Shown here in pieces: positions 18,804 to 23,117 of a stretch of 23,117 bases of DNA (position 1 is its first letter; every line of letters starts with the position of its first letter). This DNA is from a virus. The stretch spans positions 1 through 23,117 of the IMG/VR virus record IMGVR_UViG_3300017756_000119. One strand, 5' to 3'. The position numbers were made by a program, and so were the translations under genes. The notes under the pieces are model-generated. The model saw nothing but the letters and a program-made list of their open reading frames with translations. It made no database searches and was not told where the DNA came from.

Positions 18804-18837
18804 AATTATAGGGTGGTATAAAAGCCACCCTGTAATT
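18804..18837. terminator. Two-way terminator between converging gene sets
   Basis: A long stem centred on GGGTGG (18811-18816) pairing with CCACCC (18825-18830), with a loop ATAAAA and U.G closing pair. It is lengthened outward by mostly A-T pairs to about 18804/18837. The left flank is A-rich and the right flank U-rich, so it can end transcription from both sides. It lies exactly between the stop of the holin-like gene and the stop of the leftward small gene. Confidence 0.85.
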
Positions 18838-19036
18838 ATTCGAAATATTTTTTGATCATTTCTAATTGATCATCATATTTAGATATTATTTCTAATTCTT
18901 TTTCTATAGTTTCTATAATATCAGGATGCTCTGCTATTCCTGTTGATTTTTGTAATAATAAAATTACATTTGTTTTATGTTTTTCAATATGCCCTTTAGC
19001 ATGGGCCTTTAATGCTAATATTAATTGTTCCATCAT
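18836..19036 (-). CDS. Small conserved-type phage protein, function unknown
   Basis: A 66-residue helical protein. The pattern LKAHAKGHIEKHKTNVILLL, then GIAEHPDIIETIEKELEII and YDDQLEMIKKYFE, is one I recognise as a frequent small hypothetical protein in marine T7-like and related phages (from memory). It is the last gene of the leftward module, two bases after the SET gene's stop. Two ATGs stand in a row and there is no clear ribosome binding site, so coupling to the SET gene is likely. Its role is unknown. Confidence 0.65.
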   Translation of the reverse strand: MMEQLILALKAHAKGHIEKHKTNVILLLQKSTGIAEHPDIIETIEKELEIISKYDDQLEMIKKYFE

Positions 19037-19038
19037 AT

Positions 19039-19347
19039 TTATACTTTATACATTGTATATTTAACAGTTAATTCCTCACCTTTTTTAATTAGTCTATTCG
19101 TGACTAAATGAGTTTCTTCATGATATATACAATCTTCCCTTTCTTTAATACAATTTGGTTTATTACTATGATTAATAAATCCACCTAATGGTGTTCTAAT
19201 AGTATGATTAAATTCAGTTATAAAATGCATCATACCTAAATTAGTATTTTTCTTTATATCTTTAGTAGCAAATAATCCTAATCCTTCAATGTTTGATTTT
19301 TTTATTGTTAATGAATTAGGTAATGGTTTATACTTTCTTGTTTTCAT
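19039..19347 (-). CDS. Compact SET-domain protein (putative lysine methyltransferase)
   Basis: About 102 residues, close to the bare viral SET length. The three SET signatures are present: NIEGLGLFATKDI (residues ~19-31, S-adenosylmethionine site), GGFINHSNKPNC (~55-66, the NHS...PNC core) and GEELTVKYTMY (~90-100, with the usual catalytic-site tyrosine near 97). The ATG at 19347 has an AAAGAAAG box and the SET fold begins right after. A GTG at 19449 would add 34 residues, but that stretch has GC-rich codons unlike the phage and no SET pattern, so I reject it. A phage SET protein would methylate a host or phage protein; the target is unknown. Confidence 0.8.
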   Translation of the reverse strand: MKTRKYKPLPNSLTIKKSNIEGLGLFATKDIKKNTNLGMMHFITEFNHTIRTPLGGFINHSNKPNCIKEREDCIYHEETHLVTNRLIKKGEELTVKYTMYKV

Positions 19348-19516
19348 ATATCTTTCTTTATTTATGGGCAGTTTAAACAGGTTACCCAGCTGCTTCGGTT
19401 TACTAGTAGTGATGTAGGCCGAGAGAGGAAAAAGCCTATACTCATCCACCTACCATTGTCTGTTAGCCATTGCCTAATAGGTCTTACTTGTGGATCTAAC
19501 TTCTAACCGAATTCTA
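19348..19516 (-). other. GC-rich intergenic island with possible RNA structure
   Basis: The gap between the helicase stop and the SET start. Bases 19381-19500 hold 54 G or C in 120 (45%), against 15 in the 60 bases just before (25%). Read leftward as RNA it can form an outer stem (19505-19511 with 19394-19400, seven pairs), a hairpin (19491-19495 and 19478-19481 with 19444-19452) and another (19434-19438 with 19415-19419). It also carries an 11-base match (TAAACTGCCCA) to the region before the small basic gene at 3606-3616. Role unknown: structured leader, small RNA or remnant of other DNA. Confidence 0.4.
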
Positions 19517-21151
19517 TTATAATACTTCTTTGAAAGCAATATTACTTATATTGTAATTTAATCTTCCAGTTTCAGCATTATATGTAGCTTGACCACAATG
19601 ACCAGTATCTCCAGTAAATCTACTTTTTAAAACAGCAAATTTAACTGCATTACGTTCTGCTTTTTCAGCTGCCATCATGTTTCTACTAAAGGCTACAATA
19701 TCAAAACTAATTTGTTTAATACTTCCAGATCCCTTTATATCATCTAATGATGCCATACGGCCTTCCTCAAATGATTTATTATCCCCATGACTTTTTCTCA
19801 AATGAGATATTAAAGTTAAATGGATATTATATCTTTTAACAATTTTTAATAATGAACTCATAACCTTATCAATTGCTTCATTACCTGATAAACCTTCTGA
19901 GCCTTCAGATACAGCAATTGTTATGTGATCTAAAATTAAATATTGACAACCTAATGCAGCCAAATATTCAATCCTAGATAATAAAGAACTATCTTGAACA
20001 GATCCTTGATGATCTAATAATATTAATCTTTCATCACCAAATACTTTTTCAAAACCTTTTCTAGCTTCTTCCTCATTACAATCTTCTGGTGTTCTAATAT
20101 TTTTATTTATAGACATACCAATTAATCTAGTAGCAGTATCACCAATAGATTCTTCTAATGATATTAAACCTATTTTAGCATCAGATTGTTCTAATAAATT
20201 TAATATTGTTTCTTTAACAACAGTTGATTTACCTGAACCTGTACCAGATGTAAATAAAGTAATTTCACCTAATCTCATTCCTAACAATTTATCATTTAAA
20301 CCTTTTAAACAATCAGGATATGGAACAGATTTAGTATTAGATCTTTCCTTAAATGCCTGCCATATTTTTTCACCGGATACAAAATTATCTGGTTTATATG
20401 ATTTAGCTGACCAAACATCTTGTAAATATTCATCAATTAAACCTTTTTCTAAAGCCTCATTAGCATCTTTATGAATGCTATTTACAATATGAGCTTTACC
20501 TGGTTTAATAATATGTGCAACATCTTTTGCTGCCTCAATACCATATTCATCATTATCAAATGCCAAGAATACTTTATCGTATTTATTTACAAATTCTAAA
20601 TTAGATGCGATATTTCTTCTAGCACTTTGGGCTCCATTAACAATTGATACAACATCAAATTGTGCTTTAGCTTTTGTAAGCATTTCTAATAATGATAAAC
20701 AATCTATTTCACCTTCAGTAATAACTAAGTTTTTTCTTTTACCACTATTACATTGATTAAATAATTCAGGTACTTCAGCTTTACCAATAACTCTAAAATC
20801 TTTGGTAGCAACTATTCTTTTCTTATATGCTTTAATTTTTTTATTTACTGTTATGGGATAATAATGACTTGTAATATTTCTTTTATCATCATATTCTATT
20901 TTAACTCCAGCATTATATAAAACCTTTTTGGATATACCTCTAAATGTATCTATTGGTAATTGACTTATTTCATCCAAAGTTAATTGTGATTGTACAACGT
21001 TAAATTCAATATTTGTATCTTCTGTACCAGATGCAGCACTTTTTCTGCAACTAAAACAATATGTAGATCCATCAGAATAAACAGCATTTGCATCTGATGA
21101 TCCACAAGACTCACAGCTTGTATGTTTTATAAATGTTGTGTTTTTACCCAT
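19517..21151 (-). CDS. T7 gp4-like primase-helicase
   Basis: A 544-residue replication protein. Order of domains: a zinc-binding N-terminus (C13, C16, C32, C35 in CESC and CFSC), a Toprim-type primase core with TEGEID (E146, E148) and FDND (about D199, D201), then a hexameric DnaB/RecA-type helicase with Walker A SGTGSGKST (about 302-310, K308), an SLEES motif, Walker B LILDHI (about 405-410) and, near 511, SRFTGDTG, where the arginine finger is expected. It unwinds DNA and primes the lagging strand. The start at 21151 has a GAGGA box, and it overlaps the HNH-like gene by eight bases. All key motifs look intact. Confidence 0.92.
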   Translation of the reverse strand: MGKNTTFIKHTSCESCGSSDANAVYSDGSTYCFSCRKSAASGTEDTNIEFNVVQSQLTLDEISQLPIDTFRGISKKVLYNAGVKIEYDDKRNITSHYYPITVNKKIKAYKKRIVATKDFRVIGKAEVPELFNQCNSGKRKNLVITEGEIDCLSLLEMLTKAKAQFDVVSIVNGAQSARRNIASNLEFVNKYDKVFLAFDNDEYGIEAAKDVAHIIKPGKAHIVNSIHKDANEALEKGLIDEYLQDVWSAKSYKPDNFVSGEKIWQAFKERSNTKSVPYPDCLKGLNDKLLGMRLGEITLFTSGTGSGKSTVVKETILNLLEQSDAKIGLISLEESIGDTATRLIGMSINKNIRTPEDCNEEEARKGFEKVFGDERLILLDHQGSVQDSSLLSRIEYLAALGCQYLILDHITIAVSEGSEGLSGNEAIDKVMSSLLKIVKRYNIHLTLISHLRKSHGDNKSFEEGRMASLDDIKGSGSIKQISFDIVAFSRNMMAAEKAERNAVKFAVLKSRFTGDTGHCGQATYNAETGRLNYNISNIAFKEVL

Positions 21152-21521
21152 ATATTTCCTCTTCTGTTATTTTATATCTTTTTGTAGCCCATTTAACAAA
21201 CCTTTTAATATCTCTTCCAGTTGCAGAAGTCATCATAAGGTTTGCTATATTTGTTACAAATTCTACATTACCTCTTACATATCCTAATCTAGGATCTATT
21301 CTATCTAATGTTGGACTTAATTTACCTAAACTAATATTTGAAACTTTCATTGTGTACCCAAGAATTGGACATATTGAATTTTTAGGATAAATAGATTCCA
21401 AATAATTAGATGTTAAATTAAAAGGTAAATTTTTTATTCTAGCTCGTCTTTTAGAGGCCTTGCAAGCAGTAACAGCAATACCTCTAATAGATTGATTATA
21501 TTTTTTTTGATTGAATGCCAT
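21144..21521 (-). CDS. HNH-like (beta-beta-alpha) nuclease
   Basis: A 125-residue protein, basic at the start (ACKASKRRARIK), with a CPILGYTM turn (~51) and LSPTLDRIDPRLGYVRGNVEF (~69-88, here split: LSPTLDRIDPR then LGYVRGNVEF) followed by VTNIANLMM. The pattern 'CP..G....P.LDRId...GYv.gNv..v...aN' is a known phage HNH-like subfamily in which the usual first histidine is replaced. It likely nicks or resolves DNA and sits where T7-like phages carry their endonuclease. It overlaps the exonuclease by 26 bases and the helicase by 8. An upstream GGAG box lies about 13 bases before the ATG. Confidence 0.75.
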   Translation of the reverse strand: MAFNQKKYNQSIRGIAVTACKASKRRARIKNLPFNLTSNYLESIYPKNSICPILGYTMKVSNISLGKLSPTLDRIDPRLGYVRGNVEFVTNIANLMMTSATGRDIKRFVKWATKRYKITEEEIYG

Positions 21522-22242
21522 TTAAATAATTTCTCCAGTATTCTATTGACCATCTTGAATGATCTTTAAAGTCTTTAATAAGATATAACATTGTACCCAT
21601 TACATTTAATCTTGATAAAAAATCTTCTGGATAATGTTTTTTATAAGCTTTAATAACAGCTTCAAACTGTTCATTTAAACTTTTGTCTTTTAATATCTTA
21701 TTTGCTTTAACTGGACCAACACCTTCAATACCTGGTATATTATCTACAGCATCACCTGTTAATAATTGTTGATGAAAAAATTCTATTCCTTCAATTTTAG
21801 ATACAGCTGATAAATTATTATATAATAAATTATAAAATAAACCACCAATAGTTTTCCAATCCTTGTCTAAAGTTATAAGCATATATAATTGTTTATTTTT
21901 AATATATTTAAATGCTTCAACAGAGGCTGTATCATCAGCTTCATAATTTTTAACCATTATTGGTTTATAATTTCTAACAATATGATCACGACATTCTAAA
22001 TAATTTTCAGGTTTTTCTCTTCTTTTACCTTTATACTTTAAAAAATCTTGTTTTATTTCTTTTCTAAAATTACCACCACCGGAAATATGTAAACTATATT
22101 CATCACAAGCAGTATTCATTTTTACTTCTTCATATATATCATCAAATGTTTTTCTTACATCTAGATTATCCTTTATGGCTTTATTACAGGCTCTATATAT
22201 TAATACATCACCATCAACAATACCAATTATTTTATTGTTCAT
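21496..22242 (-). CDS. 5'-3' exonuclease (FEN/T7 gp6-like)
   Basis: A 248-residue metal-dependent nuclease. Signatures in order: VDGDVLIYRA (D10, D12), a KGKRREKPENY basic patch, NYEADDTAS (E101, D103, D104), TLDKDW (D126, D128), LLTGDAVDNIPG (D164, D167) followed by the helix-hairpin-helix GIEGVGPVKANKIL. These are the conserved acidic sites and DNA-binding helix of FEN-type nucleases. It would degrade host DNA and remove RNA primers. Starts after an AAGGT box, and the upstream cupin-like gene stops one base before it, so the two are tightly linked. Confidence 0.88.
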   Translation of the reverse strand: MNNKIIGIVDGDVLIYRACNKAIKDNLDVRKTFDDIYEEVKMNTACDEYSLHISGGGNFRKEIKQDFLKYKGKRREKPENYLECRDHIVRNYKPIMVKNYEADDTASVEAFKYIKNKQLYMLITLDKDWKTIGGLFYNLLYNNLSAVSKIEGIEFFHQQLLTGDAVDNIPGIEGVGPVKANKILKDKSLNEQFEAVIKAYKKHYPEDFLSRLNVMGTMLYLIKDFKDHSRWSIEYWRNYLNGIQSKKI

Positions 22243-22243
22243 T

Positions 22244-22729
22244 TTAATACCTTTTTAATTGCTCTTTGTGTTTATCACCTAATATATCACCTGTCCAATC
22301 TTCTGAAACATGAGATGGTTTTATATTATTTAACCATTTTTGAATTGATATAAATGCACCACCTTTATTTGATGATTGACCACCATGTAATTCATTTTGT
22401 TTAATTCTTAATGTCCAATTTGAGCACCTGGGCATATTATTTCTTTCTAATAATGCCATTTGTTTATTTATTATTGTTTTACCTTTATGAGTAAATTCCA
22501 TACCCCACAAAAACATTTCATAACTATCTATATTAGGATGTGAATGTTCTTTAATTATAACATTTGGTTCACAAATAAATAATTGAACTTGAAATTGTCC
22601 TTTTCTATAAATAGTTACTCCTGATATACCATCAATAAACATTATAGGATTATTATAAGGTACATTAATTAAATTATTTTTTAAGTACCAATTTTTAAAT
22701 TCCTTTAAATCATCATTAATGGGTTTCAT
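22244..22729 (-). CDS. Cupin-like protein in the replication operon
   Basis: A 161-residue protein. I chose the ATG at 22729 because an AAGGAA box precedes it; a GTG at 22756 would add nine residues. Both lie inside the DNA polymerase's end in another frame. The core has a metal-binding cupin-type motif, IIKEHSHPNIDSYEMFLWG (H-x-H, E after six residues, then G), and a second strand with NELHGGQSSNKGGAFISIQ. That gives the usual three His and one Glu candidates. The rest is strand-rich. It could be a dioxygenase-like or sugar- or nucleotide-binding protein; the substrate is not known. Confidence 0.65.
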   Translation of the reverse strand: MKPINDDLKEFKNWYLKNNLINVPYNNPIMFIDGISGVTIYRKGQFQVQLFICEPNVIIKEHSHPNIDSYEMFLWGMEFTHKGKTIINKQMALLERNNMPRCSNWTLRIKQNELHGGQSSNKGGAFISIQKWLNNIKPSHVSEDWTGDILGDKHKEQLKRY

Positions 22730-23117
22730 ACCAGTTATTTCCTTCTTTAGCATCACCTGCCATTTGAATATTTAAATTTAATTCCTTAGTAATAAAATCA
22801 CCAAATGAATAAGATAATATTTCTTTTACTCTTTTAATGTTTTCTGGTTTAGTTTGAACTTGAACTTCATCATGAATTAAACCTAACATATCAACATTTA
22901 AATTTTCTTCTTTAAACATTTTAAAAGCATTAACAACAGCTGATTTAACTGTAATTGCTTCATATGCTTGTAATAAATAATTTAATAATTTAAATGAAGA
23001 TTCAGCATATATTTTTCTTCCATCTAATGCTGGAATAAAACCCATCTTATCTTTATTTTGTGTTGTATAAAAAAATTTATTTAATCTATTATTTAATTCT
23101 TTTAATCCAGGAAAGGC
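22716..23117 (-). CDS. Family A DNA polymerase (T7 gp5-like), C-terminal part
   Basis: The frame is open to the right edge, so only the last 133 residues are seen. It contains LIHDEVQVQTKPENIKRVKE, the HDE motif of family A palm domains (motif C, T7 'HDE'), preceded by a helix with YEAITVKSAVVNAFKM. The end, GDAKEGNNWYETH, matches the characteristic C-terminus of T7-type polymerases. It copies the phage genome and would work with the gp4-like helicase and the exonuclease encoded after it. It overlaps the cupin-like gene, which begins inside its final codons. Confidence 0.9.
   Translation of the reverse strand, partial: AFPGLKELNNRLNKFFYTTQNKDKMGFIPALDGRKIYAESSFKLLNYLLQAYEAITVKSAVVNAFKMFKEENLNVDMLGLIHDEVQVQTKPENIKRVKEILSYSFGDFITKELNLNIQMAGDAKEGNNWYETH

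Follow-up and report, generated by a model that had tools for sequence, protein, structure and literature searches.

Most work on SET enzymes concerns proteins that write marks on eukaryotic chromatin, or bacterial effectors that are injected into eukaryotic cells. Here we ask what a SET-only protein does in a phage whose host is a bacterium. The protein is encoded in a 23,117-nucleotide stretch of viral DNA (IMG/VR record IMGVR_UViG_3300017756_000119), which was analyzed as a whole and is referred to below as the window. In a megablast search with this 23-kb record, the nearest entries were the SAR11 siphovirus Kolga and its partial sister Aegir, and we assign the carrier to the Kolga-like siphoviruses of SAR11.

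A SET gene in line with the replication operon

The early operon of the window contains the following features, from upstream to downstream.

22716..23117, minus strand: DNA polymerase family A, C-terminal part, cut by the window end (Pfam/PHROG)
22244-22756, minus strand: 170-amino-acid open reading frame between the DNA polymerase and the exonuclease
21496..22242, minus strand: exonuclease of the replication operon (phrog_107, 1.1e-47)
21144..21521, minus strand: endonuclease of the replication operon (phrog_3322, 1e-25)
19517..21151, minus strand: primase-helicase (Toprim and DnaB-like), upstream of the SET gene (phrog_239, 1.8e-148)
19365..19511, minus strand: conserved structured RNA between the primase-helicase and the SET gene (alignment covariation)
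19039..19347, minus strand: SET-domain protein, 102 amino acids (profiles, structure model, conservation)
18836..19036, minus strand: 66-amino-acid protein of phrog_1811, annotated as unknown function (E=3.8e-25)
18810..18831, minus strand: terminator-like hairpin at the end of the early operon (hairpin)

The SET gene sits beside the primase-helicase, as the first-pass annotation had stated, yet a structured RNA of about 147 nucleotides lies between the two. The phrog_1811 gene is the next gene after SET in Kolga-like phages, and beyond the hairpin the minus-strand early operon faces plus-strand genes. For the 170-amino-acid frame, neither PHROG nor PADLOC gave a match, and Pfam and NCBIfam gave none that is credible.

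The SET frame runs from an ATG at 19347 to the stop at 19039 and yields a SET-only product. This ATG is common to the relatives and is preceded by a purine-rich, ribosome-site-like sequence. A 136-amino-acid version with a GTG start 34 codons further up in the same frame was rejected: its extra part runs through the conserved RNA element, and the length of this stretch varies among relatives.

The first-pass annotation had described a minimal phage SET-domain protein with three SET signatures in only about 102 residues, and sequence profiles, the structure model, conservation and the phage context agree with this description. All three signatures are present: GLGLFA (residues 22-27) in the SET-N part, NHSNKPNC (59-66), and GEELTVKY (90-97), which includes Tyr97; His41 and RTPLGGF (51-57) are specific to the family. 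The Pfam SET profile (PF00856) matched the protein at E=1.5e-11 with 45.1 bits against a gathering score of 22.4, which supplies the profile match on which the SET assignment had been made to depend. When the alignment was scanned with Pfam, 28 of 28 members (the query included) matched SET at E<=0.001 and no member matched any other Pfam family. The protein was also matched by phrog_28741, a family annotated as unknown function (1.2e-27, model positions 2-98 of 100), and a profile search of PDB sequences returned MLL4 at 1.9e-11 and vSET at 1.9e-8 (profile positions 7-92). The SET signal is far beyond chance.

Two other assignments were considered and rejected. The NCBIfam model of a Legionella SET effector scored 26.5 bits against a cut-off of 550, reflecting a shared SET motif and not membership. 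A reading as a defence component found no PADLOC match; the scan returned 0 families at E<=0.01, with models that describe defence and not counter-defence.

The modelled protein has a SET fold with a very short SET-I segment

An AlphaFold2 model of the 102-amino-acid protein, built on the 28-member alignment, reached a pLDDT of 88.4 and a pTM of 0.77, with a poorly predicted C-terminal tail (pLDDT 44 for the last two residues). In a Foldseek search of the PDB the top ten matches were all SET proteins, vSET being second (E 7.1e-7). VIA-align gave a Z of 12.5 for MLL3 (5f6k; 3.1 Å, 95 residues) and of 11.6 for vSET (3kma; 2.4 Å over 88 residues, 27% identity), and the matches listed were SET-family proteins. 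Among viral structure models, the leading named matches were SET proteins of giant viruses and of uncultured Caudovirales. Judged by its model, the protein has the SET fold, and the comparison with vSET that had been proposed for it bears this out.

MLL-type domains matched as well as vSET or better. The MLL/KMT2 SET domains (4z4p, 5f6k) are the best matches in both sequence and fold and share the GxG, NHS-PNC and GEEL-Y motifs; they belong to larger proteins named histone methyltransferases. They differ from the phage protein between GxG and NHS: counted on the alignment, 35 residues separate G24 from N59, compared with 64 in MLL4 (4z4p), about 29 fewer. Similarly, 86 profile positions span 104 residues (3-106) of vSET. 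By this count the SET-I region, which in SET enzymes makes up one side of the substrate groove, is very short; this could mean that the peptide groove is reduced.

The protein vSET (chlorella virus PBCV-1 A612L; 1n3j, 3kma) is likewise a stand-alone viral SET protein, of 119 amino acids, and is named an H3-Lys27 methyltransferase. Its host, however, is a eukaryote with histones, whereas the host of the phage is a bacterium, and the phage protein may work like vSET at most by analogy.

Predicted catalytic and cofactor positions are conserved

Conservation was counted in 112 distinct viral sequences of at least 85 amino acids (from 146 loci) and in 79 distinct bacterial sequences (from 80). In the viral set, Tyr97, Glu92, Asn59, Gly24 and Gly38 were each present in all 112 sequences, His60 in 111, and Gly22 and His41 in 107 each. 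In the bacterial set, Gly22, Gly24, His60, Glu92 and His41 were each present in 79/79 and Tyr97 in 78/79, the remaining sequence having a gap. In the alignment with MLL4, Tyr97 falls on the second tyrosine of ELTYDY, the catalytic tyrosine of SET enzymes. Judged from these alignments, the family retains the predicted catalytic tyrosine as well as the motifs expected to contact SAM.

The viral loci had been picked by the peptides TPLGGF[IVL]N and HS[ND][KTR]PNCx[KIL], and the bacterial loci by RTPLGGF[IVL]N or SxI[EH]G[LH]G[LIV]FA, so that conservation at pattern positions is partly built in, while positions 38, 92 and 97 are free of the patterns. The counts for Tyr97 and Glu92 were not produced by selection, because the search patterns sit elsewhere in the protein. 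RTPLGGF appears to be a signature of the SET subfamily, although the searches selected partly for it.

Within the Kolga-like group, the dN/dS of the SET gene had a median of about 0.27 and a maximum of 1.2 (491/496 pairs, 32 sequences). The gene is under purifying selection; the maximum means that not every pair shows constraint.

A conserved structured RNA precedes a swappable slot

The RNA at 19365-19511 contains five helices with compensatory changes in an alignment of 31 sequences. In this alignment, 98.9% of 806 cells were paired, 34 cells were compensatory and the covariation score was 0.156, and for each of these three values 0/500 shuffles were as high. Six pairs had changed on both sides (6/500 shuffles as high), the pair-type count was not raised (486/500 shuffles as high), and slid controls were at most 52% paired. 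The single-sequence fold was not unusual (z 0.46), and the structure is visible in the alignment only. An Rfam scan of the window gave no family at gathering score and, at E<=10, only a chance-level match to a Wolbachia sRNA (E 4.8); a tRNA search of the window found none.

Pattern scans recovered the RNA in 56 and 31 viral stretches. The carriers are the window and other Kolga-like pelagiphages (L001-L041, L071, L248-L291 and L296-L304). At 65 distinct RNA loci, SET was the next gene in 47, while 18 had no SET within 700 nucleotides. In the latter, the RNA was followed by a 75-76-amino-acid protein, directly by an 81-amino-acid phrog_1811-like protein, or by only a terminator-like end; one of the 18, L303, is a contig end. 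Because 18/65 loci lack SET after the RNA, we rejected the idea that it serves SET specifically, whether as a leader or as a riboswitch that might sense SAM. Since the RNA also occurs in phages without SET, it is an independent element, and SET is dispensable cargo there. Collectively, the RNA after the primase-helicase is a new conserved structured element of Kolga-like pelagiphages, and SET, which closes on the end of the early operon, is an accessory (moron-like) gene whose position is swappable.

The subfamily is widespread in marine phages and bacteria

A single-sequence search yielded 70 viral SET loci from 73 candidates. With the alignment as query, at least 592 viral stretches among 600 candidates encoded SET relatives, as did 234 of 470 candidate stretches in genome contigs, and nine records of annotated phages, representing six distinct phages, carried relatives. 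The carriers are phages of SAR11 and Prochlorococcus and phages without an assigned host, together with marine bacteria. The proteins measure about 92-122 amino acids in phages, most being near 100, and 91-148 in the bacterial loci read. The first-pass annotation called SET methyltransferases mostly eukaryotic, which understates this subfamily: it is common among marine phages and also occurs in several groups of marine bacteria.

In the SAR11 family, 122/197 genomes had some match, and in about 27 of them the match was close (E<1e-20); the best match of G018 and of G126 looks phage-borne. The rest, which make up most of the SAR11 genomes with any match, match weakly through a second, larger SET-like protein with open frames of about 140-180 amino acids (e.g., G110:C12:16030-16143). 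SET relatives were found in 14/130 genomes of the order of a Marinimicrobia host and in 4/120 genomes of a flavobacterial family.

A quick tree was computed from 151 rows and 119 columns after sequences below 85 amino acids and near-copies had been dropped. With 70/148 inner branches open and long branches, it was used only for the SAR11 clade and a coarse host/phage split. The SAR11 chromosomal copies formed their own starred clade, apart from the all-viral group of the window. Some genome rows are evidently phage contigs within MAGs, which inflates the apparent mixing of host and phage; genome row L149, for instance, groups with viral L111. Another locus, L148 (MAG contig NZIO01000026.1, 41,965 bp, equal in length to IMG/VR contig L018), is evidently a phage binned into a "Pelagibacter MAG."

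Gene neighborhoods differ between lineages

In Marinimicrobia, SET lay directly upstream of metK in 10/11 loci, the metK frame being broken in L242, and in the four long loci ahcY came next after metK (names by NCBIfam). This metK-ahcY neighborhood places the Marinimicrobia homologue in the SAM cycle. The SET-metK loci of this lineage are L185, L213, L219, L221 and L234-L243.

In the SAR11 loci (n=17), alanine dehydrogenase was immediately upstream of SET in 12 (L168, L176-L178, L183, L188, L195, L214, L217, L218, L225 and L227); four (L189, L193, L197 and L201) had SET in glycine-betaine/homocysteine-methyl clusters, and L192 lay elsewhere. The copies in these osmolyte clusters are 146-148 amino acids long and are accompanied by the aminotransferase AptA, alanine dehydrogenase and often taurine-type transport, or by glycine-betaine demethylation genes. 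In Flavobacteria, the 97-amino-acid form (L158, L207; L161 reads 91 amino acids) lay between argC and proC in an arginine operon with the order argG-argC-SET-proC-argD-N-acetylornithine carbamoyltransferase-argB (L158 named by NCBIfam), and 38 flavobacterial loci with a 122-amino-acid form showed no informative partner gene. In Porticoccaceae, SET followed fabA-fabB in L165, L172, L216 and L194 (L172 named by NCBIfam).

Among phages, the genes around SET differ too much to single out a partner. In P-RSM6 its neighbors are baseplate genes and in P-SSM7 it comes one gene after nrdB, and homologues of metK, ahcY, alaDH, AptA, GcvT-like, BHMT or GbcA were absent from the viral loci searched. A SAM-cycle pathway as the common context, taken from the metK-ahcY neighborhood, was rejected on the differing operons of the other lineages (taurine/alanine dehydrogenase, arginine, fabAB), and the metK link may be an accident of one lineage. 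Because the bacterial operons share no common pathway, a general substrate appears likelier than a pathway-specific one.

Predicted function and alternative explanations

We consider the product of 19039..19347 to be, most probably, an active SAM-dependent protein-lysine methyltransferase of the SET superfamily with little beyond the catalytic core, a prediction from its sequence and model. Its support comes from the SET profile, the fold, the kept cofactor and catalytic positions, purifying selection, wide distribution and the swappable slot at the operon end. The metK neighbor of the Marinimicrobia homologues points the same way, unless that link is peculiar to one lineage. SAM would be bound by the GxG loop and the Asn59-His60 strand, and Tyr97 would help methyl transfer to a lysine of a protein substrate. 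Because the SET-I insert region is very short, the substrate site may be shallow and open, so that an exposed lysine or a flexible tail would fit it. Because its gene stands in line with the replication operon, the enzyme would probably act on a protein of the host or the phage, in the early to middle part of infection. In the phage and bacterial loci read, no consistent neighbor points to the substrate. For the ribosomal proteins, nucleoid proteins and RNA polymerase put forward in the first-pass annotation, the neighborhoods (variable phage loci and unrelated bacterial metabolic operons) give no support either way.

One narrower version of this explanation, with which its probability overlaps, has the active methyltransferase aimed at the host translation apparatus. 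Kolga, a close relative, also encodes ribosomal protein S21 (PMC8163748), and in infections by other pelagiphages part of the SAR11 cells are reported to have no detectable ribosomes (PMC11066056). That loss of ribosomes would fit a translation target, but the paper concerns other phages and proposes another cause; moreover, no linkage between SET and ribosomal genes was seen, S21 in Kolga lying about 12.5 kb away. We regard this special case as rather unlikely. It is unlikely, too, that the protein binds SAM without catalysis, as a sink, sensor or adaptor that, for example, lowers methylation-dependent host functions. The unusually short SET-I and the metK-ahcY neighbors of the Marinimicrobia homologues would suit such a protein; the invariance of Tyr97 outside the single bacterial gap argues against it, because a mere binder would not need this residue, and the glutamate of GEE is present in all viral and bacterial sequences.

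An active methyltransferase might instead modify something other than protein lysine, such as a free amino acid or small metabolite, given that bacterial copies occur in arginine (three loci), taurine/alanine-dehydrogenase and glycine-betaine operons. These operons share no metabolite, however, the fabAB and phage contexts do not fit, and nearly all of the SET homologues listed from the PDB bear the name of protein-lysine methyltransferases, so that we judge a small-molecule target quite improbable. Least probable of all is that the gene is an ordinary host gene recently captured from SAR11. The close homologues in about 27/197 SAR11-family genomes would allow it, but the chromosomal copies are 146-148 amino acids long with an insert and form the starred clade of their own, and the group of the window joins other viral sequences, in a quick tree with many open forks. 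As the SAR11 clade stands apart from the group of the window, a recent capture from the present host is unlikely.

Relation to known SET proteins

The closest annotated relative is Kolga gp27 (QLF88473.1), with 83% identity over all 102 amino acids and the annotation "hypothetical"; hypothetical proteins of cyanophages P-RSM6 and P-SSM7 show 46-47% identity over 95%. The phrog_28741, Kolga and cyanophage records bear hypothetical or unknown-function labels, without a SET annotation. SET in tailed phages is already on record and is not new in itself: SET proteins of uncultured Caudovirales and of MW202744.1 (annotated as a PBCV-1-like H3-K27 methyltransferase) have been deposited, and they are mostly larger. 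SET also occurs inside larger proteins of Rhodoferax phage P26218 (L294 3455-4330, 291 amino acids) and MW202744 (L295 3527-4288, 253 amino acids), both encoded among virion, DNA-ejection or terminase genes and possibly virion-borne.

A literature search, to which most subscription papers were closed, found no paper on the short RTPLGGF SET subfamily and none joining "SET domain" with "cyanophage." The available text of the Kolga paper (PMC8163748) mentions neither "SET domain" nor "methyltransferase," and that of a review of bacterial SET proteins (PMC3980110) does not mention "phage." We did not find the short RTPLGGF subfamily, or its spread in marine phages and bacteria, described before.

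The result is a SET-only family, shared by marine phages and marine bacteria, for which no eukaryotic target is apparent. Its minimal fold is informative on the question of which parts of a SET domain are indispensable. The substrate would reveal a role of protein-lysine methylation inside bacteria, and with Kolga and its cultured SAR11 host the substrate question is testable. As a tentative proposal, possible though on balance doubtful, the RTPLGGF proteins would form a separate SET subfamily found throughout the ocean. They would rank with the smallest functional SET enzymes and would methylate one conserved bacterial protein, with the copies in marine phages setting the methylation of that protein during infection. 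If this were true, SET lysine methylation would be a regular regulatory layer in the warfare between phages and bacteria, with no eukaryote involved.
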